From: a virus
Length of the DNA stretch: 21,853 nucleotides
Strand: one strand, 5' to 3'
IMG/VR virus record: IMGVR_UViG_3300044546_000675
Location: 1-21,853 of that record
Below are positions 4,509-20,596 of the stretch, in pieces. Made by a program: the position numbers and the translations under genes. The notes under the pieces are model-generated. The model saw nothing but the letters and a program-made list of their open reading frames with translations. It ran no database searches and was not told the origin of the DNA. Numbering within the stretch: position 1 is the first letter of the stretch; each line of letters starts with the position of its first letter.

Positions 4509-4919
4509 ATGAAAAAATTCTTATGGAAAATATTAGGTTTCCTTAGTTTGGGAATGGCCTATGTTGGATTAGTTACACCAGGTATCCCCTACTCAATCTT
4601 TGTGGTGTTTGCGGCCTATTGCTTTGCCAAAGGTAGTCCCAAGATGCATGCCTGGATTTACAATCACAAACTGTTTGGACCGTTCCTTACTAACTGGGGT
4701 GAAAAGCGTGTGTTCCCACAGAAGATGAAATACTTCATGTTGTTCATGATGACAACCAGTTTGATCACCATGTGGTTGACAGCAGTCCCAGTTCGTGGTA
4801 TAATATACACAGCAGTGTTTATGATGCTGGTGGCCATATGGGCTTGGAGATTCCCCAGCTCAGTTGAAGAATATGACAACAGAAAAGCACAAGGTAAAAA
4901 AATTGGATGGATTAAATGA
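4509..4919 (+). CDS. DUF454 (YbaN-like) inner-membrane protein
   Basis: This 136-residue integral membrane protein has the DUF454 signature: GLVTPGIPYSIFVVFAAYCF, then KGSPKMHAWIYNHKLFGPFL and a W-x-x-x-R-V-F-P-x-K-M-K block. Hydrophobic segments lie at about residues 7-24, 27-40, 74-90 and 97-115. The ATG at 4509 is preferred over an in-frame ATG at 4479 because it follows the previous stop by one base and begins with the MKKFLWK expected for this family. The molecular function of DUF454 is not established. It overlaps the next gene by ATGA and contains a consensus promoter within its coding region. Confidence 0.85.
   Translation: MKKFLWKILGFLSLGMAYVGLVTPGIPYSIFVVFAAYCFAKGSPKMHAWIYNHKLFGPFLTNWGEKRVFPQKMKYFMLFMMTTSLITMWLTAVPVRGIIYTAVFMMLVAIWAWRFPSSVEEYDNRKAQGKKIGWIK
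4776..4804 (+). promoter_or_regulatory. Perfect-consensus sigma70-type promoter inside the DUF454 gene
   Basis: TTGACA at 4776-4781 and TATAAT at 4799-4804 are separated by exactly 17 bases. Initiation near 4811 would give a transcript with about a 105-base leader reaching the first 2OG oxygenase gene at 4916. A 12-of-12 match at the optimal spacing is unlikely by chance in a window this size, but the encoded residues may also constrain the bases. Confidence 0.65.
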
Positions 4920-5566
4920 CACCTACCTATAAGGTCACTCCACTGTTTGGCGTGCCTTTGTACCAGACCAACATTGGGTCATTGGATAAAGGCATGCGCG
5001 AATTCATTGAAAATCAAGAATATGAACGCATGGCCGCCGACAACGGTGACTATACAGTGAACAAGTATATTTTAGATACTCCAGAACTTGCTCCGTTGAA
5101 AGCTAAAATTATGAAAGCGGCAGATAATTTTATCTACACAGTCTTAGACGTAAAACGCAACATGGATTTTCGCATGGAGAACAGTTGGGTGAATCGTCAT
5201 TACACAGGCGACTACTCTGGACAACACTATCATGGCAACAGCCTTATCAGTGGTGTTTATTACATAGACACAGGCGTTGATACTGGTGCATTTGTATGTC
5301 ACAAAGACAAGGGCAACTATAACCTATGGACCGAAACTGTGAGAGTGGACTTCAATTATCAAGACCACGGTAACGATGCCAAGCTGAATTTCTTCAATGC
5401 CGATGCTTGGGGTTTGTATCCTGCCAAAAATGACCTAATCATGTTCCCATCCATGATGACTCATTCGGTTGAGGAAAATCAATCGTCAAAGATACGATAC
5501 AGTTTGGCCTTTAACCTATTCCCCCGAGGCACAGCCGGTGGTGTAATCAATACCCTAACTGTTTAA
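4916..5566 (+). CDS. 2OG-Fe(II) oxygenase family protein (TIGR02466 / 2OG-FeII_Oxy_5 type), first copy
   Basis: Predicted 2-oxoglutarate- and iron-dependent hydroxylase of 216 residues. Family landmarks are the N-terminal TPLFGVPLYQT block, HYHGNSLISGVYYID (H104, H106), MFPSMMTHSV (H183) and the R-Y-S-L-A-F-N block with R194, the likely 2OG carboxylate contact. The usual HxD iron motif reads H-x-H-x-N-S here, as in this family. Substrate is unknown; phage members are thought to modify protein or nucleic-acid targets, but nothing in the sequence settles it. The start overlaps the DUF454 stop by ATGA. It is followed without a gap by a paralogue with the same architecture. Confidence 0.88.
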   Translation: MTPTYKVTPLFGVPLYQTNIGSLDKGMREFIENQEYERMAADNGDYTVNKYILDTPELAPLKAKIMKAADNFIYTVLDVKRNMDFRMENSWVNRHYTGDYSGQHYHGNSLISGVYYIDTGVDTGAFVCHKDKGNYNLWTETVRVDFNYQDHGNDAKLNFFNADAWGLYPAKNDLIMFPSMMTHSVEENQSSKIRYSLAFNLFPRGTAGGVINTLTV

Positions 5567-6214
5567 ATGCAACATAGAATAACGCCATTGTTTGCAATAC
5601 CTTTGTTTCAAACACATCTAGGCAATCTCAATATCATTACCAAAACTTGGTTAAAAAATCTTGAGTATCCTTATCAACGAACCGGCCACGATGGCACTGA
5701 CGAAGATCTCGATGAGGGATCAAAAGGCATGTACATTCTAGACAAACCTCAACTCAAGAATTTGCGTAAACAGATAACAGACGCAATTGATTATTTTGTG
5801 CATCAATCGTTGGGCGTCGACGATGGTATAAAATTTGATATATCAACCAGCTGGGCCAATCGATATCTAAATGATGAACTTGTGATTAAACATAATCATA
5901 AAAATTCTATGATCAGTGGAGTCTACTATATAGAAACAACAGCCACCACTGCTCCAATTGTGTTTGAACAGGCATGGTCGCATGTGAACCTGTTTCACTC
6001 AACAACAACGCCCACGTTTAAAAAAACTCATGTGAACGAGTATAACTCAAGCACACATACCATTTATCCGAGAACTGGAGATCTCTTGTTGTTCCCTTCC
6101 CATCTAGAACATACAGTTCCCGCAAGTGATTCAACAGACACTAGATACAGTCTAGCATTTAATTGTTTTGCTAGAGGACATATGGGATTTGGAACTGGAC
6201 AAATAACACTATGA
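5567..6214 (+). CDS. 2OG-Fe(II) oxygenase family protein, second tandem copy
   Basis: A 215-residue paralogue of the preceding gene, starting on the base after its stop. The same blocks are present: ITPLFAIPLFQTHLG, HNHKNSMISGVYYIE (H109, H111), LFPSHLEHTV (H182) and RYSLAFN (R193), ending FARGHMGFG. Catalytic positions are kept in both copies while the middle is diverged (this copy has an acidic DGTDEDLDEG stretch near residues 42-51), pointing to an old duplication with distinct substrates rather than a redundant pair. The start overlaps no upstream codon and has no obvious Shine-Dalgarno, so coupling to the upstream gene is likely. Substrate unknown. Confidence 0.88.
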   Translation: MQHRITPLFAIPLFQTHLGNLNIITKTWLKNLEYPYQRTGHDGTDEDLDEGSKGMYILDKPQLKNLRKQITDAIDYFVHQSLGVDDGIKFDISTSWANRYLNDELVIKHNHKNSMISGVYYIETTATTAPIVFEQAWSHVNLFHSTTTPTFKKTHVNEYNSSTHTIYPRTGDLLLFPSHLEHTVPASDSTDTRYSLAFNCFARGHMGFGTGQITL

Positions 6215-6462: not shown

Positions 6463-6506
6463 ACTCACACAGACAGCATAAATTTACAAACAAGGAAAAT
6501 AGTAAA

Positions 6507-6710
6507 ATGGTAACAGGAAAAGTAAAATGGTTTAACGACGCCAAAGGTTTTGGATTCATTACTCCGGACGATGGTGGCGCAGACTTATTTGCTCACTTTT
6601 CACAGATTAATTCGAGTGGCTTCAAGAGCCTACAAGAAGGACAAAGTGTAAGGTTTGAAGTGACTCAGGGTCAAAAAGGCGAGCAGGCTAGTAATATTCA
6701 AGCTGCCTAA
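6507..6710 (+). CDS. Cold-shock-domain protein (CspA family)
   Basis: A 67-residue single OB-fold that binds single-stranded RNA and DNA and can melt RNA secondary structure. The family pattern is complete: [16 protein letters not shown] (RNP1 = KGFGFI), then DLFAHFSQI (RNP2-like, with L-F-A replacing the usual V-F-V), G-F-K-S-L-x-E-G-Q-x-V-x-F-E-V and QASNI. An AAGGAAAA ribosome binding site precedes the ATG. It stands directly upstream of the tmRNA gene and could be cotranscribed with it. A transcription-antitermination or mRNA-melting role during infection is inferred. Confidence 0.95.
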
Positions 6711-6791
6711 AAAATTGTTGTAGAAGTCTTAAAGTAAGGCATTCTGGACGCGGGTTCGACTCCCGCCAGGTCCACCATAAAGGAGATTAGT

Positions 6792-6863
6792 ATGGATAAC
6801 GAATATAGTGCTCTAGTTGGCTTTATTGTTGTTATCGTAGTATTTGCTCTAGTCCTTTTATGA
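6792..6863 (+). CDS. 23-residue membrane peptide ORF in the tmRNA intervening segment
   Basis: A small ORF lies entirely in the 87-base segment between the two tmRNA pieces. It has a strong ribosome binding site (AAAGGAG at 6779-6785) 6 bases before the ATG. The peptide starts MDNEYSALVG and continues as an unbroken hydrophobic run (FIVVIVVFALVLL), a plausible single membrane span. The TGA stop at 6861-6863 leaves one base before the mature 5' end of the coding piece, so a terminating ribosome would cover the acceptor-stem strand. No function is known; a small membrane effector or a leader that times tmRNA processing are both possible. Chance occurrence cannot be excluded, but the start signals are better than those of many genes here. 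Confidence 0.6.
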   Translation: MDNEYSALVGFIVVIVVFALVLL

Positions 6864-6943
6864 TGGGCCTGCCATGGTTTCGACAGGGTGAGATAGGATA
6901 AAGATCAACACGTGGGGTCACGTAAAATACAAAAAACGTAAAT

Positions 6944-7030
6944 GCAAACGCAGATACATTCGACTTCAGCGCAATGAGCTTCACTGGAAACACTGTTTCC
7001 GGCAAAAGCAAAGTTGCTCTAGCTGCCTAA
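6944..7030 (+). other. tmRNA tag reading frame (28-residue degradation tag)
   Basis: From the GCA resume codon, preceded by an A-rich stretch and GTAAAT, the frame runs 28 codons to TAA. It starts ANADTFDF and ends KVALAA, the C-terminal hydrophobic signal recognised by ClpXP/ClpAP. A GGAAAC-ACT-GTTTCC hairpin (6975-6989) lies inside the frame. The tag is longer than the roughly 8-20 residues usual in bacteria. The resume codon is inferred by analogy and could lie a few codons later. Confidence 0.75.
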
Positions 7031-7076
7031 AAAACAGCGGTCCGAGGTAGTTATACCTTGTCATCCAAAATAGCAG

Positions 7077-7101
7077 AACCCGCTTCGGCGGGTTTCTTTT
7101 T
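7077..7101 (+). terminator. Intrinsic terminator after tmRNA
   Basis: A 7-bp stem AACCCGC/GCGGGTT closed by a TTCG tetraloop is followed by TCTTTTT. It cleanly ends the cold-shock/tmRNA transcription unit. Confidence 0.9.
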
Positions 7102-7131
7102 GGCAATATTTCCAAATTATCGTCTCGAAGT

Positions 7132-7174
7132 TGTGCGTGTACGCACATGTTTTGTTTGAAAGTTCACGTATAAT
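7132..7174 (+). promoter_or_regulatory. Palindrome plus TATAAT box upstream of the DUF4214 gene
   Basis: TGTGCG-TGTA-CGCACA (7132-7147) is a perfect inverted repeat, and TATAAT lies at 7169-7174, 33 bases before the ATG. No good -35 hexamer is found at 16-18 bases, so an activator bound at the palindrome or a phage-specific polymerase factor could supply recognition. The remainder of 7102-7206 shows only an AAAAAGGAAAA ribosome binding site. Confidence 0.4.
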
Positions 7175-7206
7175 GGTAGGATCATATTATTTAAAAAGGA
7201 AAAATT

Positions 7207-8103
7207 ATGACAACAACAATTACAATCAAAGACAAACCGATTAACGCAACCTATCAAAATGTTACAGGCCTAACAGGCGGAACCGGAACAGGTGCTGCTT
7301 TTGATGTTACTAAAACAGACGGAGTATACTCTGTTGTTCTAGACAGTCTAGTAGCCAGTGCAGGATCGGGATACCTTGCTGGTGACACAATCACTCTTGC
7401 TGGTACGGCACTAGGCGGAGCGGCAGCTAACAACTTGATCGTTACTGTTGCTACAGTTGGCACTGCTGGTAAAATTGCTACGTTCGGTGTAGTAGGTACA
7501 GGTCGTGCTGGCGACGGCACAGTTGATATTACAGTTGATGTTACCGGTACTACAGGTATTGACACTTACACAATGGGAGGCGCAAGCACAGAGTTCACAA
7601 CAACTAAAACTGCTAGTAAAGTAACCTTGGCAAGTACCTTGATATCTAACATGGAATTTAATCTTGCTGATCACGAGCGTGTTGTATTCACAGACAAAGC
7701 TATTGCCTATGATGCCGCAGGTCGTGCAGGTGATGTATACTCATTACTAGCAGCCGCACTTGGTACTGCTGATGTTACTAACGCATACAAAGGCATTGGC
7801 ATTGATCTAGCCGACAAAGGTTGGACCAACAAACAATTGGCAGAAGCCCTATTAAACACAGACGTTTACAAAACAGACGCAGGTGGGGTTGGCAATGAAA
7901 CTTTCATCAAGCACGTTTACAAAAACGTATTTGGCACTGATGCTGCATTGACACAGGTTACAGACTACACAGTATGGATGACTAACAATAACCTGTCACA
8001 AGCTGATGTTTTGGTTGCCGCAAGTGAGTTAGCAGCTTTTGAAACAACTATTGGGTTGGTCGGTTTAGCCACAACCGGCATTGAATATACTCCTGTTGTA
8101 TAA
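7207..8103 (+). CDS. Beta-rich structural/adhesion protein with C-terminal DUF4214 domain
   Basis: This 298-residue protein is rich in T, G, A and V and low in charged residues. Residues about 15-95 resemble a repeat seen in phage fibre and structural proteins: GTGTGAAFDV, then VASAGSGYLAGDTITLAGTALGG and a strand block. The C-terminal 85 residues look like DUF4214 (ETFIKHVYKNVFGTDAAL, then LSQADVLVAASELAAF), a domain of secreted S-layer-like and calcium-binding repeat proteins. No signal peptide is visible, which suits a virion protein. It is a single-gene unit: terminators flank it on both sides, and a palindrome with TATAAT precedes it. Likely a decoration, fibre or receptor-contact protein; the exact role is not certain. 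Confidence 0.75.
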   Translation: MTTTITIKDKPINATYQNVTGLTGGTGTGAAFDVTKTDGVYSVVLDSLVASAGSGYLAGDTITLAGTALGGAAANNLIVTVATVGTAGKIATFGVVGTGRAGDGTVDITVDVTGTTGIDTYTMGGASTEFTTTKTASKVTLASTLISNMEFNLADHERVVFTDKAIAYDAAGRAGDVYSLLAAALGTADVTNAYKGIGIDLADKGWTNKQLAEALLNTDVYKTDAGGVGNETFIKHVYKNVFGTDAALTQVTDYTVWMTNNNLSQADVLVAASELAAFETTIGLVGLATTGIEYTPVV

Positions 8104-8278: not shown

Positions 8279-8818
8279 ATGAAAACAGTCGGACACAAAT
8301 TAGAAAAATTCACAGTCACCGGCGTCAAGCCAGGACAACCAGAAGACGCTTTCTTTGACATTACAGAGAAGTCATTTGAAGGCAAGTGGAAAGTAATCGT
8401 TTACTATCCAAAAGACTTTACATTTGTATGCCCAACAGAAATCGTAGCCTACGACAAATTGACAGGCGACTTTGCTGATCGTGATGCTGTATTGCTCACA
8501 GGTTCGACAGACAACGAGTTCTGTAAAGTTAGCTGGCAAACAGCTCACGCTGATTTGAAGAAGATCACACACAATCAGTTTGCCGACACACAACGTGGTG
8601 AGTTGAGCTTGATTGAACAGTTGGGCGTATTCTATGCACCTGCTGGTGCCGCACTTCGCGCAACATTCATTGTTGATCCAGACAACGTTATTCAACACGT
8701 TACTGTCAACAACTTGAACGTTGGTCGTAGCCCAGAAGAAACTCTGCGTGTGTTGGATGCGCTACAAACCGGTGAGCTTTGCGCTTGTAACCGTACAGTT
8801 GGCGGCGAAACACTTTAA
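8279..8818 (+). CDS. ahpC: Alkyl hydroperoxide reductase subunit C (2-Cys peroxiredoxin)
   Basis: A peroxiredoxin of 179 residues that reduces hydrogen peroxide, organic peroxides and peroxynitrite. The peroxidatic cysteine C51 is in DFTFVCPTE, and a resolving pair lies in GELCACNRTVGGETL (C168/C170), the C-x-C tail of the AhpD-dependent (mycobacterial-like) group rather than the AhpF-dependent enterobacterial one. That agrees with the ahpD gene two positions downstream. The AAGGAG ribosome binding site and the 8202-8230 promoter mark it as first gene of its operon. Peroxide defence during infection is the natural reading. Confidence 0.96.
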   Translation: MKTVGHKLEKFTVTGVKPGQPEDAFFDITEKSFEGKWKVIVYYPKDFTFVCPTEIVAYDKLTGDFADRDAVLLTGSTDNEFCKVSWQTAHADLKKITHNQFADTQRGELSLIEQLGVFYAPAGAALRATFIVDPDNVIQHVTVNNLNVGRSPEETLRVLDALQTGELCACNRTVGGETL

Positions 8819-9018
8819 TGGAAACTAGGACAAGGACCTTGGTCAAGACCATCATCTATAGGATTTGGGTCTTATGCTCAACCTATGTGATGTTGTTGGT
8901 AACAGGACAAAGTTTAACACAGGCCCTTGTTCCTACAATCATTATAAATTGTGTCTGGATGACATCATACTATTTGTATGATAGACTTTGGGCACGTATT
9001 AAATGGGGACGAAAATGA
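8818..9018 (+). CDS. DUF2061 small membrane protein
   Basis: A 66-residue protein with the DUF2061 pattern: METRTRTLVKTIIYRIW, hydrophobic VLCSTYVMLLVTG, a second span (LVPTIIINCVWMTSYYLY) and the ending DRLWARIKWGRK. Two membrane spans are predicted with basic ends. The first base overlaps the ahpC stop and its own stop overlaps ahpD by ATGA, so it is translationally tied to both peroxidase genes. The family has no assigned biochemical function; a membrane anchor or redox link for AhpC/AhpD is only a guess. Confidence 0.85.
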   Translation: METRTRTLVKTIIYRIWVLCSTYVMLLVTGQSLTQALVPTIIINCVWMTSYYLYDRLWARIKWGRK

Positions 9019-16327: not shown

Positions 16328-16364
16328 GATCTTACTTTAAAAGGAGATAATTATGTCTAAGATC
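16328..16364 (+). promoter_or_regulatory. dnaK translation-initiation stem-loop (candidate RNA switch)
   Basis: GATCTTA (16328-16334) pairs perfectly with TAAGATC (16358-16364), placing AAGGAG and the ATG in a 23-base loop. Nearly the same leader sequence precedes hsp20, where a different 7-bp stem with an identical 23-base loop occurs. Confidence 0.5.
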
Positions 16365-18254
16365 ATCGGTATCGATTTAGGTACCACAAACTCATGTGTA
16401 GCTGTTATTGAAAACGGCATCCCCAAAGTAATTGAAAATGCAGAAGGTGCTAGAACAACACCTTCAATCGTTGCCTACGGCAAAGATGAAATTCTCGTAG
16501 GTGCTTCAGCAAAACGTCAATCAGTTACTAACCCCAAAAATACAATCTATGCTTCAAAGCGTTTGATTGGACGCAAGTTTAAAGAGGAAGCTGTTCAAAA
16601 GGACATCAACCTTATGCCCTACGAAATCATGGAAGCCAAGAATGGCGATGCATGGGTTCGTGCTAATGGTCAAGAGTTGGCGCCTCCACAAATCTCAGCA
16701 GAAGTTTTGCGTAAGATGAAAAAGACAGCGGAGGATTATCTAGGTCATGAAGTTACTCAAGCAGTTATCACAGTTCCTGCGTACTTTAACGACAGCCAAA
16801 GACAAGCTACTAAAGACGCTGGACAAATCGCAGGCCTGGAGGTACTCCGTATTATTAACGAGCCTACTGCGGCAGCTCTTGCTTATGGCGTTGATAAAGC
16901 TGATAAAAGAGATAGGAAAATTGCTGTTTACGATCTTGGTGGCGGTACATTCGATGTTTCGATCATCGAAATAGCCAACGTAGATGGAGACAAGCAGATC
17001 GAAGTATTGAGCACAAACGGCGATACATTCCTTGGCGGTGAAGACTTTGACCAACGTATTATGGATTACTTGGTTGAAGAATTCCGCAAGGATCAAGGTG
17101 TTGATCTAACCAAAGATGTACTTGCTCTACAGCGTTTAAAAGAATCTGCTGAGAAGGCAAAAATTGAATTGTCTAGCTCTGCAAGCACAAGTGTTAATTT
17201 GCCATACATCACAGCAGACGCAAGTGGCCCTAAGCACATGAATATCACTATTAGCCGTAGCAAGTTAGAACAGCTTGTTGACGAGTTAATCACTCGCTCA
17301 ATTGAGCCATGTAAAGTTGCCATGAAAGATGCAGGTGTCACAGCCGCTGACATCGATGAAGTTATTCTTGTTGGTGGTATGACACGTATGCCAAAGGTAC
17401 AAGAAGCCGTTGAAAAATTATTTGGCAAGGCACCACGTAAGGATGTTAATCCAGACGAAGCTGTTGCCGCAGGTGCCGCAGTACAAGGTGCTGTTCTCGG
17501 TGGCGATCGTACTGATGTGTTGTTGCTAGATGTGACTCCACTGAGTTTGGGTATTGAAACAATGGGCGGTGTGTTTGCAAAGGTTATTCAAAAGAACACA
17601 ACCATTCCGACTAAGGGACAGCAGACATTCTCAACAGCAGAAGACAATCAACCTGCGGTGACTATCAAGGTATTCCAAGGTGAGCGTGATCTAGTACAAT
17701 ACAACAAATTGCTAGGTGAATTCAATCTTGAAGGTATTCAACCGCAACGTCGTGGACAGCCGCAAATCGAAGTTACATTTGATATTGATGCTAACGGTAT
17801 CATGAATATCTCGGCCAAGGACAAGAGCACAGGCAAAGAAAACAAGATCACTATTAAATCAGATAGCGGTCTAAGCAAAGAAGAAATTGAACGCATGGTA
17901 CGTGAAGCTGAAGAAAATGCAGAGAGTGATCAAAAAGCTCGAACATTAATTGATGCTCGCAACCAAGCTGAAGCAACTGTACATGAAGTTAAAAAAGATC
18001 TTGAAGAATTTAAAGATGAATTAACTGATACAGAAAAGACAGAAATCGAGACAGCAGTTAAATCAGTCGAAGACGCTATGAAAGAAGATGACGCTGATAA
18101 AATTAAAGCTGAACTCGAAAAAGTTTTTCCGGCAATGAAAACATTGTTGGAGAAAAAGCAGGCCAAGGAACAGGCAGCTCAGGCGCCTCAACCAGAAGCC
18201 AAAGCAGATGACAATGTGGTAGACGCTACGTTTACAGAAACTAAGTCTAGCTAA
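16353..18254 (+). CDS. dnaK: Molecular chaperone DnaK (Hsp70), full length
   Basis: ATP-dependent Hsp70 that binds exposed hydrophobic stretches of client proteins. All parts are present in 633 residues: phosphate-binding [11 protein letters not shown] (residues 5-15), [11 protein letters not shown] and [11 protein letters not shown] in the ATPase domain, interdomain linker [13 protein letters not shown], the substrate-binding beta domain (ending near [16 protein letters not shown]), a helical lid, and a C-terminal tail with VVDATFTE like bacterial DnaK tails. Catalytic and linker residues look intact, so it should be active. It resembles proteobacterial host DnaK, so recent-to-moderate transfer from a host is likely. 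No GrpE gene or DnaJ is visible; host co-chaperones would be needed. Full-length DnaK in a phage is unusual. Confidence 0.98.
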
Positions 18255-18262
18255 TTGTCTTG

Positions 18263-18290
18263 GGGGCACCTTCGGGGTCCCCATTGTTCT
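18263..18290 (+). terminator. Hairpin after dnaK, probable terminator or attenuator
   Basis: GGGG-C-ACC (18263-18270) pairs with GGTCCCC (18276-18282) over 7 bp with one bulged C, followed by ATTGTTCTT. The T-rich part is imperfect and the hsp20 gene begins only 20 bases later, so partial termination or mRNA stabilisation is more likely than a full stop. Confidence 0.55.
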
Positions 18291-18319
18291 TACTTTATAA
18301 GGAGACTATTATGAACAAT
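18283..18319 (+). promoter_or_regulatory. hsp20 translation-initiation stem-loop (candidate RNA switch)
   Basis: ATTGTTC (18283-18289) pairs perfectly with GAACAAT (18313-18319). The 23-base loop contains TAAGGAG and the first two bases of the ATG. The G of ATG is paired. The leader 18286-18313 matches the dnaK leader at 24 of 28 positions. Confidence 0.5.
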
Positions 18320-18757
18320 AACGCATTACAAAGAATTGAAGCTATTAATAGAGCACTGATTGGTTTTGACACCATGTTCGACCAAATGGAACGTAGATTT
18401 TCCAACAGTGTGTCCAACAACTATCCTCCGCACAATATACTCAAGACTGGTGAGAATCAGTATGAGATTCAAATTGCTGTGACAGGATTTGAAAAATCGG
18501 AAATTTCCGTAACTGTAGAAGCTAATGTGCTTACAGTAAAAGGCGAAGGAGCAGAATCTGTTCGCCATGAGAATCCGGAAATTGTTTACTTGCATCGTGG
18601 TCTAGCCACCCGCGACTTTGTTCGTGAGTTTCCACTTGCTGAACACATGGAAGTTGCAGGTGCAGAAATCCGCAATGGCATGCTGATTGTGAAATTGATC
18701 CGCAATATTCCCGAGTCTGAAAAGCCACGTGTGATTGACATTGTGGAAGTTAAATAA
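18311..18757 (+). CDS. Small heat-shock protein Hsp20 (IbpA-like)
   Basis: An ATP-independent holdase of 148 residues. The start at 18311 follows AAGGAGACTATT; an in-frame upstream start would lie in the hairpin region. The N-terminal arm (ALIGFDTMFDQMERRF) matches IbpA-type proteins. The alpha-crystallin domain spans about residues 42-135: PPHNILKTGENQYEIQIAV, VTVEANVLTVKG, YLHRGLATRDFVREFPLAEH, and AEIRNGMLIVKL. The C-terminal anchoring motif would normally read IxI or similar; here I-D-I-V-E-V is available. Phage Hsp20 is common in T4-like marine phages. It would hold unfolded proteins for the neighbouring DnaK. Confidence 0.95.
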   Translation: MNNNALQRIEAINRALIGFDTMFDQMERRFSNSVSNNYPPHNILKTGENQYEIQIAVTGFEKSEISVTVEANVLTVKGEGAESVRHENPEIVYLHRGLATRDFVREFPLAEHMEVAGAEIRNGMLIVKLIRNIPESEKPRVIDIVEVK

Positions 18758-19371: not shown

Positions 19372-19923
19372 ATGAGCCTAAGAGAATTAACCAAAGACAA
19401 TCACACCAATGCAGAAAGACAGGAGTTTGTAAAAATACTGTTTTCAGGAACCATAGATCCCAAACTGTACGCTACATATCTCTACAATCAATTTCCTATG
19501 TATGAGCTGTTAGAAGTATGTGCCATGCCGCATGGACTGCTGTCTGACATGCCAGGAATCTTACGGGCCAAGGCCATTAGAGCTGACTTTGAGGAATTAT
19601 GGGGATCAGACGAAGAAGATAGACCCAAAATGTGTGCAGTGGTAAAAGAGTATATGGATCATATTATGAAAATTAAAGATGATCCTAAATTGCTAATGGC
19701 ACACCTTTATGTACGACACATGGGCGATCTAGCTGGCGGACAAATGATTGCCAAAAAGGTGCCCGGGGCTGGCAAGTACTATCAATTTGAAGATGCCGAT
19801 AGTCTAAAAGCAGCAGTTCGTTTAAAAATCGACGACAGCATGGCCGACGAAGCAAAAGTCTGTTTTGATTTTGCTACACAATTTTTTAAAGAGATGATGG
19901 AAATTGCAAACATCAACAAGTAA
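19372..19923 (+). CDS. ho: Heme oxygenase (HO-1 family)
   Basis: Opens the heme ring to biliverdin, CO and iron, using reductant. The 183-residue protein has the HO pattern: LTKDNHTNAE with proximal H11 (axial heme ligand), and GDLAGGQM at residues 118-125, the distal helix glycine motif. Overall size fits the compact bacterial/cyanophage form rather than larger eukaryotic enzymes. The ribosome binding site ACGGAG sits near the start. The downstream bilin reductase starts inside its 3' end, so biliverdin would be passed to reduced bilin. Such pairs are known in cyanophages and in uncultured oceanic phages. No ferredoxin gene is visible in the window. Confidence 0.93.
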   Translation: MSLRELTKDNHTNAERQEFVKILFSGTIDPKLYATYLYNQFPMYELLEVCAMPHGLLSDMPGILRAKAIRADFEELWGSDEEDRPKMCAVVKEYMDHIMKIKDDPKLLMAHLYVRHMGDLAGGQMIAKKVPGAGKYYQFEDADSLKAAVRLKIDDSMADEAKVCFDFATQFFKEMMEIANINK

Positions 19924-20596
19924 AGTCTGGCAAACACTCATTGAAGTGCAAGAGCTGTTTATTGAACAGTTCAACAAAACCGGAAAGGAAGTATATGAAA
20001 CGGGTATGGATCGCTTCAACAGCCCTGGTTGGGTTAATCGTGTTTGGACCAGTAGCAGTTATCGTAGGGCTCACGTTGATGTTGTGGATGCTAGAGAAAC
20101 CAAAGGACTCTGGATGATGCACTGTTGCATCTTCCCGCATACACATAATCCTGCACCGATCTTTGGATTCGATGTAATTGCAGGCAAGAACAAGATCACC
20201 GGGTGTTTCTATGATTACTCAGCTGCCGGCGATAAAGAACATGCTATGATGGATTGGTTTGCAGAAGAAGCACAAAAGCTAGAGTGGAATAAAACTCGCA
20301 AACTGCCAGATTGGGCAGAACGTATCTTTAGCCCTAGTATGGTAGCTGCTGGGAACGTTAGCGATGAAGAAGAACTAGCACAGATTATTGCCATGGCAAA
20401 AGAGGGCATACAGCACTATTTGAGCACGGTAGCAGAAACCAATAATACAGCTAACGATACTACAGAGGCACAGAACTACTACTGCGAAAATCAAAAGCAG
20501 AACCCGCATACACCACGTGTAATGGTTAGTTTAGGGCTTTCAGAAGAGGACGTTAAACATTTTATTCAAGAATGCCTGTTCCCTGAAATCAGCTAA
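19904..20596 (+). CDS. Ferredoxin-dependent bilin reductase, PcyX-like
   Basis: A 230-residue member of the PcyA/PebS/HY2 family, which reduces biliverdin with ferredoxin electrons. Core blocks are VDVVDARETKGLWMMHCCIFP (H73, matching the PcyA H88 position), APIFGFDVI (D90, catalytic Asp equivalent to PcyA D105) and a C-terminal helix (LSEEDVKHFIQECLFPE). It lacks an ATG: the TTG at 19904 overlaps the ho end by 20 bases, next in-frame choice is GTG at 19946. The TTG is preferred because it keeps the N-terminal helix. Closest by memory is PcyX, the phage enzyme proposed to make phycoerythrobilin; PcyA-like phycocyanobilin output cannot be excluded. No bilin lyase or phycobiliprotein is visible. 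Confidence 0.86.
   Translation: MQTSTSKVWQTLIEVQELFIEQFNKTGKEVYETGMDRFNSPGWVNRVWTSSSYRRAHVDVVDARETKGLWMMHCCIFPHTHNPAPIFGFDVIAGKNKITGCFYDYSAAGDKEHAMMDWFAEEAQKLEWNKTRKLPDWAERIFSPSMVAAGNVSDEEELAQIIAMAKEGIQHYLSTVAETNNTANDTTEAQNYYCENQKQNPHTPRVMVSLGLSEEDVKHFIQECLFPEIS

Follow-up and report, generated by a model that had tools for sequence, protein, structure and literature searches.

A probable protein-coding gene in the intervening sequence of a permuted tmRNA gene from a giant T4-like phage

The permuted tmRNA gene and its intervening sequence

The window, a stretch of viral DNA of 21,853 nucleotides (nt) comprising positions 1 to 21,853 of the IMG/VR record IMGVR_UViG_3300044546_000675, carries a circularly permuted transfer-messenger RNA (tmRNA) gene, and the intervening sequence (ITS) between the two halves of this gene contains an open reading frame (ORF) of 23 amino acids (aa). 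All features of the locus lie on the plus strand. When the whole window was scanned with Rfam 15 at gathering thresholds, tmRNA_permuted (RF04321) matched positions 6716–7030 with 120.5 bits (cut-off 47), and beta_tmRNA (RF01850) matched 6683–7005 with 102 bits (cut-off 84), a score that places the gene in the betaproteobacterial subtype. These were the only two matches above threshold, and both are the tmRNA locus. The standard, alpha and cyano tmRNA models were not among the matches listed in a permissive scan of 6500–7300, in which four lower-scoring overlaps of the same clan were left out. ARAGORN likewise predicted a permuted tmRNA gene at 6685–7121, with the tag ANADTFDFSAMSFTGNTVSGKSKVALAA closed by a stop codon. 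A gene for a cold-shock domain protein (6507–6710) is located directly 5′ of the tmRNA, and the ARAGORN span overlaps its end.

The acceptor half precedes the coding half. The T arm (6750–6766) is followed by CAGGTCC (6767–6773), the 3′ strand of the acceptor stem, and by the ACCA that finishes the acceptor piece at 6777, as read from the sequence and the RF04321 alignment. The 5′ strand of the stem, GGGCCTG (6865–6871), starts the coding piece, with the RNase P site expected at 6864/6865. All seven base pairs of the acceptor stem are formed, and the third, G6867–U6771, is the alanine G-U pair. The tag reading frame (6944–7030) encodes 28 aa that end in ALAA, and terminates with TAA. A terminator-like hairpin followed by a T run, read from the sequence by eye, lies at 7078–7101. 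The gene order, the CCA and the tag are thus all those of a permuted tmRNA. An earlier, sequence-only reading of this DNA had proposed the same order of the halves, the 7-bp stem with its G-U pair and piece ends at 6777 and 6865; RF04321, ARAGORN and direct reading concur with the order, and the ends fit the CCA and the GGGCCTG. It had also named two observations that would speak against a permuted gene, namely failure of every permuted model, where RF04321 and RF01850 in fact both score above cut-off, and a better one-piece tmRNA elsewhere in the genome. The one-piece model RF00023 exceeded its cut-off in none of three large virus records (G001, G002 and G003); its best weak matches had 31.3 bits in G001, in a stretch containing the window's own ITS, and 37.4 bits in G002.

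The ITS itself is 87 nt long (6778–6864). Its ends pair (TAAAGGA with TCCTTTTA), and in the predicted fold the acceptor stem runs on into this ITS stem. A Shine-Dalgarno sequence, AGGAG, is present at 6781–6785, with a predicted unpaired probability of 0.2. The ORF (6792–6863) begins with ATG at 6792, encodes MDNEYSALVGFIVVIVVFALVLL with a predicted single membrane helix, and is closed by a TGA (6861–6863) that ends one base before the coding piece. This ORF, which the sequence-only reading missed, is a more surprising feature than the permuted tmRNA itself. Misassembly was rejected, the identical ITS being found on six other contigs (14 loci, two of which are the window itself and the others paired from the six contigs). 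A group I intron was also rejected, with the T loop (6755–6761) intact and no further Rfam family over cut-off in the window.

Judged by sequence, the window comes from a large T4-like phage, because the 353,123-base contig G001 is near-identical to it (99.95% over 12,894 compared bases at its locus L122) and encodes a homologue of T4 gp23 (PF07068, 2.6e-96), as the sequence-only reading had anticipated in calling the genome T4-like. The gp23 family was also found in G002 but not in G003. A megablast search of the window against phages gave no match. When the tmRNA region was the DNA query, the phage matches fell chiefly on the terminator or on the T-arm stretch of tmRNAs or tRNAs that are unrelated. 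SmpB was found in none of six phage records examined, which are possibly fragments, and therefore the RNA would use the SmpB of the host. That the phage acquired a host-type processing pathway, as the sequence-only reading further suggested, overreaches: host tRNA-processing enzymes would be enough.

Recurrence and coding signature of the spacer ORFs

Viral contigs matched one permuted-tmRNA pattern in at least 119 stretches. A downstream gene is common to 80 loci, and in 45 of these ARAGORN predicted a permuted tmRNA, with ITSs that differ from one another. Altogether, 301 loci gave 188 distinct ITSs with a median length of 79 nt (range 24 to 382); the counts refer to distinct sequences among the matches listed, many of which are related to one another, and are not frequencies in nature. 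An ORF is present in 49 of the 188, of which 41 were called by an automatic rule that demands a Shine-Dalgarno sequence and 8 by judgement. The 8 come from 55 extra ITSs admitted when that demand was dropped, and were kept for their length, hydrophobicity or relatives; the other 47 were treated as chance. Thirteen cargo-bearing loci were scanned (loci are given L numbers), and all 13 exceeded the RF04321 cut-off with 78.8–124.5 bits, even with ITSs of 370–380 nt; their subtype is mixed, with beta_tmRNA in six, alpha_tmRNA in four and neither in three.

Chance is rejected as the origin of these ORFs. For ITSs of at least 60 nt, we required a Shine-Dalgarno sequence, an ATG at offset 8–16 and an open frame spanning 75% of the ITS, and left out those ITSs that came solely from the two gathering patterns that themselves selected for ATG or AGGA in the ITS. 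Among ITSs gathered blind to their content, 28 of 151 satisfied this definition, against a mean of 0.89 and a maximum of 4 in 200 end-preserving shuffles. The subset from a pattern for the coding half only gave 20 of 69, against a shuffle mean of 0.32 and a maximum of 2.

The ORF of the window evolves as a protein in its relatives, and the spacer is not of the ordinary non-coding type. In 19 distinct phage ITSs encoding membrane peptides, the start codon lies 9 to 14 nt after the CCA, one hydrophobic helix is encoded and the TGA is placed alike. A Shine-Dalgarno-like sequence occurs in most of them, by rule not in L225, L089 and L114, and the start codon of L068 is TTG. Protein-like evolution is concluded from hydrophobicity in one frame only and from a preference for synonymous change between close pairs. 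The ORF frame alone contains the hydrophobic stretch in all 19, the best 15-aa Kyte-Doolittle mean being 2.69–3.57 compared with at most 1.79 in other frames; by this control an artefact of composition was rejected. The pair L019/L201 differs by 10 synonymous changes on 19.2 sites and 5 nonsynonymous changes on 52.8, L030/L098 by 5 and 3, and L227/L068 by 7 and 5. Larger cargo behaves similarly, with 28.8 synonymous changes on 47.5 sites and 21.2 nonsynonymous on 159.5 in L258/L285, and 13 on 64.8 and 7 on 247.2 in L326/L294. Nothing is drawn from the pairs L256/L339 and L153/L328, which are of unequal length and unaligned.

The cargo is diverse. Together with L114, missed by the extraction rule, there are 50 cargo proteins of 19–122 aa, 36 of which have a strongly hydrophobic stretch. 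Short BLAST sorts them into 21 groups, although this is single linkage of very short hydrophobic peptides, in which chance may account for some links (such as that between L024 and L166) and some families may have been divided. Two of ten cargo proteins scanned match Pfam families above cut-off, DUF2061 (3.5e-20) and DUF6356 (7.3e-10), and for five cargo families homologues occur in related phage loci at places other than an ITS. The DUF2061 gene occurs in the tmRNA spacer of L179, L258 and L285. As a separate observation, the window has a free-standing DUF2061 gene at 8818–9018 (5.8e-5, just above cut-off). Three of the 188 ITSs (L125, L194 and L022) hold tRNA genes, Arg CCG twice and Asn GTT. 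In 33 of the 49 ORF-bearing ITSs a single base separates the cargo stop codon from the coding piece; in nine the stop comes earlier, and seven have none before the RNase P site. Among these seven, L247, L307 and L358 end in an in-frame GAT, so that the cut would fall right after a whole sense codon; in L336 too it would coincide with a codon boundary, whereas in L159, L250 and L266 the last codon is cut short after two bases.

The closing stem is retained in cargo ITSs, though it is weaker than in ordinary ones. Terminal pairing of own arms versus swapped arms is −8.20 versus −5.39 kcal/mol in cargo ITSs (44/49) and −12.05 versus −5.05 kcal/mol in ordinary ITSs (132/132). The left arm of this stem contains the Shine-Dalgarno sequence and the right arm the last codons, so that RNA pairing is partly reflected in the C-terminal motifs LVLL and HVFF. 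As a bacterial control, 250 genomes of one order were searched, a sample drawn outside the alphaproteobacteria and cyanobacteria, and 13 exceeded the RF04321 cut-off. The ITS could be extracted from nine of the 13 and measures 24–42 nt, while L372, L374, L375 and L376 failed the rule. The ITS-ORF pattern had no match in bacterial genome contigs, a weak control given that the general permuted pattern matched just three there.

Several observations weigh against a protein-coding spacer. By rule, 139 of the 188 distinct ITSs carry no cargo and have a strong terminal stem, often ending in TGAT; the related L161 shares the downstream gene but lacks such an ORF in its ITS, and L077 has a Shine-Dalgarno-like sequence and an ATG but just 10 codons. 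The pair L310/L337 shows one synonymous and six nonsynonymous changes, and more diverged pairs (for example L346/L312, L024/L227 and L114/L089) show little or no synonymous excess. The C-terminal codons are constrained by the closing stem as well. Eight of the ten cargo proteins scanned had no Pfam match, for the window's peptide family no homologue outside ITSs was found in related phage loci, and tblastn of the 23-aa peptide against phage isolates gave no match, a search in which BLAST may mask a short hydrophobic query. Finally, the Shine-Dalgarno sequence is predicted to be mostly paired (mean unpaired probability at most 0.27 in 15 of 18 cargo ITSs folded, and 0.41–0.61 in L258, L294 and L310), and therefore translation may be weak or conditional.

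Other features of the window may be mentioned here. The tag is unusually long, as it is in relatives, with 22 distinct coding sequences of the ANADTFDFSAMSFTGN type; many other phage tmRNAs of the set have the usual 10-aa tag. Over the first 18 codons of the long tags the nonsynonymous/synonymous ratio is 0.09 (single-difference codons, pooled over non-independent pairs), and judged from these sequences the extension looks conserved as a peptide. The tag gave no tblastn match in phage isolates. Elsewhere the window encodes two adjacent 2OG-Fe(II) oxygenases (4916–6214), an AhpC-type peroxiredoxin (8279–8818), a full-length DnaK (Hsp70; 16353–18254, 855.6 bits), an HSP20 protein (18260–18757), and a heme oxygenase (19372–19923) that adjoins a ferredoxin-dependent bilin reductase (19904–20596).

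The spacer as a probable cargo site

The spacer of a permuted tmRNA gene is generally treated as waste, and an RNase P cut together with 3′ end processing is established for permuted tmRNAs in general. For the window, we consider it likely that the ITS of this T4-like giant phage doubles as a protein-coding gene and that the slot is a cargo site. A single transcript would be the precursor of both tmRNA pieces; host RNase P would cut at 6864/6865, 3′ processing would set the end of the acceptor piece at 6777, and the pieces would pair into a two-piece tmRNA using the host's SmpB. The spacer, with its Shine-Dalgarno sequence, ATG and stop codon, would serve as a small message, translated while still part of the precursor or after release of the 87-nt piece, and its product would be the 23-aa peptide with one predicted membrane helix. 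Related phages retain the tmRNA and the closing stem with other small genes, or a tRNA gene, in the spacer, the direction in which genes moved being something we infer from sequence. The source of the stop codon was probably the TGAT found at the end of many ordinary ITSs, and that of the Shine-Dalgarno sequence probably the left arm of the closing stem. As single-helix peptides of 19–30 aa, the products suggest candidate roles in lysis timing, exclusion or effects on the host membrane.

How much does the position of the cargo matter? This is the sole point on which the cargo-site reading differs from a compatible one, to which we give a substantial but somewhat less than even chance: the spacer genes may be ordinary phage genes, present as passengers with no regulatory tie to the tmRNA and tolerated because the spacer is discarded. 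The homologues of five cargo families outside ITSs in related phages speak for passengers, as do the tRNA genes in three ITSs. Start and stop, however, mostly lie in the two arms of the closing stem, which suggests that gene and spacer were adapted to each other.

The spacer might even be a dedicated expression site, in which a mini-mRNA released by RNase P and 3′ processing, and closed by its own terminal stem, couples cargo output to tmRNA maturation; as this message would end at its stop codon or before it, the same tmRNA would rescue or tag its translation, giving a one-gene feedback loop between a membrane peptide and ribosome rescue. We regard this extension as doubtful. Because seven of the 49 ORFs have no stop before the RNase P site, processing would leave in these cases a nonstop mRNA, the kind of substrate on which tmRNA itself acts. 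Stop-less ITSs are a minority, and the window, whose TGA precedes the expected cut, is not among them.

Two further explanations fare worse. The ORF could be a translated leader for control of the RNA, the ribosomes opening the stem or covering the RNase P site and so tuning tmRNA maturation, with an inert peptide. The stop codon one base before that site in two-thirds of the cargo ITSs (33/49) and the location of the Shine-Dalgarno sequence in the stem agree with this, but a leader would have no need of a conserved membrane helix or of a DUF2061 or DUF6356 protein, and the ORFs that stop earlier or lack a stop before the site do not fit, so that we think it improbable. Least probable of all is that RNA constraints produced the ORF as a by-product, with the stem AAGGA...TCCTT and the TGAT mimicking a Shine-Dalgarno sequence and a stop and U-rich sequence reading as hydrophobic: cargo and ordinary ITSs alike do show terminal pairing, and it includes the Shine-Dalgarno sequence and last codons, but hydrophobicity in the ORF frame only, codon-wise conservation, the 0.89 expected from end-preserving shuffles against 28 observed, and other cargo that is soluble, up to 122 aa long or matched to Pfam families all speak against it.

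If the spacer is translated as the cargo-site reading supposes, one phage locus and one transcript would yield a protein as well as a ribosome-rescue RNA. How tRNA-type processing is linked to gene expression could then be tested directly, with the stop-less cases as natural tests of arfA-like control. Such genes may escape both the ORF callers in which RNA genes are masked and the RNA finders in which the spacer is thrown away.

Comparison with known systems

Permuted tmRNA in aquatic phages has already been published. Of the 133 unique phage tmRNA structures counted in PMC9004378, 53 are two-piece; marine or aquatic phages account for 50 of these, and the two-piece tmRNA of phage Melnitz is described. 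PMC11915505 introduced RF04321 and lists 79 unique phage tmRNAs. The sequence-only reading had held a permuted tmRNA in a T4-like phage to be unusual: its presence stands (Rfam, gp23), and its unusualness does not in view of the 53 published forms. The window resembles the permuted tmRNAs of Melnitz and Mosig (RF04321, RF01850; PMC9004378) in gene order, G-U acceptor stem, CCA and ALAA tag; the Mosig record annotates SsrA, which ARAGORN finds to be permuted. By eye, no comparable ORF was seen in the ITSs of the phage isolates XacN1 (114 nt), Marzo (57), BUCT628 (26) and Mosig (about 43).

Spacer-borne protein genes in the permuted tmRNA genes of phages appear to be new. No description of such a gene was found in the open-access (PMC) literature as far as its text was accessible, subscription papers and supplements lying outside the search, and the accessible parts of PMC9004378 and PMC11915505 make no mention of ORFs in the spacer. 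The closest parallel among nested protein genes is the group I intron tmRNA with a homing endonuclease gene, which is likewise removed on maturation; according to PMC11915505, such genes are present in 36 of 883 tmRNA intron forms. Unlike that case, the slot in the window is a permuted spacer with no intron, and none of the ten cargo proteins scanned matched an endonuclease family. That paper also describes, as unique, a permuted tmRNA whose intervening sequence holds a tRNA-Ala gene; it comes from a nominally archaeal assembly. The gene there occupies the same slot as the ORF of the window, but the cargo is RNA.

Two further systems involve small proteins. The text of PMC10117765 predicts a 23-aa small ORF at the split tmRNA of Sinorhizobium meliloti, the C-terminal part of which is the tag; mutation of its start codon left tag translation unaffected. 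It is also a small ORF in a permuted tmRNA gene, but as far as that text describes it, not a separate gene in the spacer. E. coli arfA (PMC10107115) is resembled by the seven stop-less ITSs, and a feedback loop of the kind considered above would be arfA-like. The ORF of the window differs from arfA in having a stop codon, and arfA is not part of a tmRNA gene.
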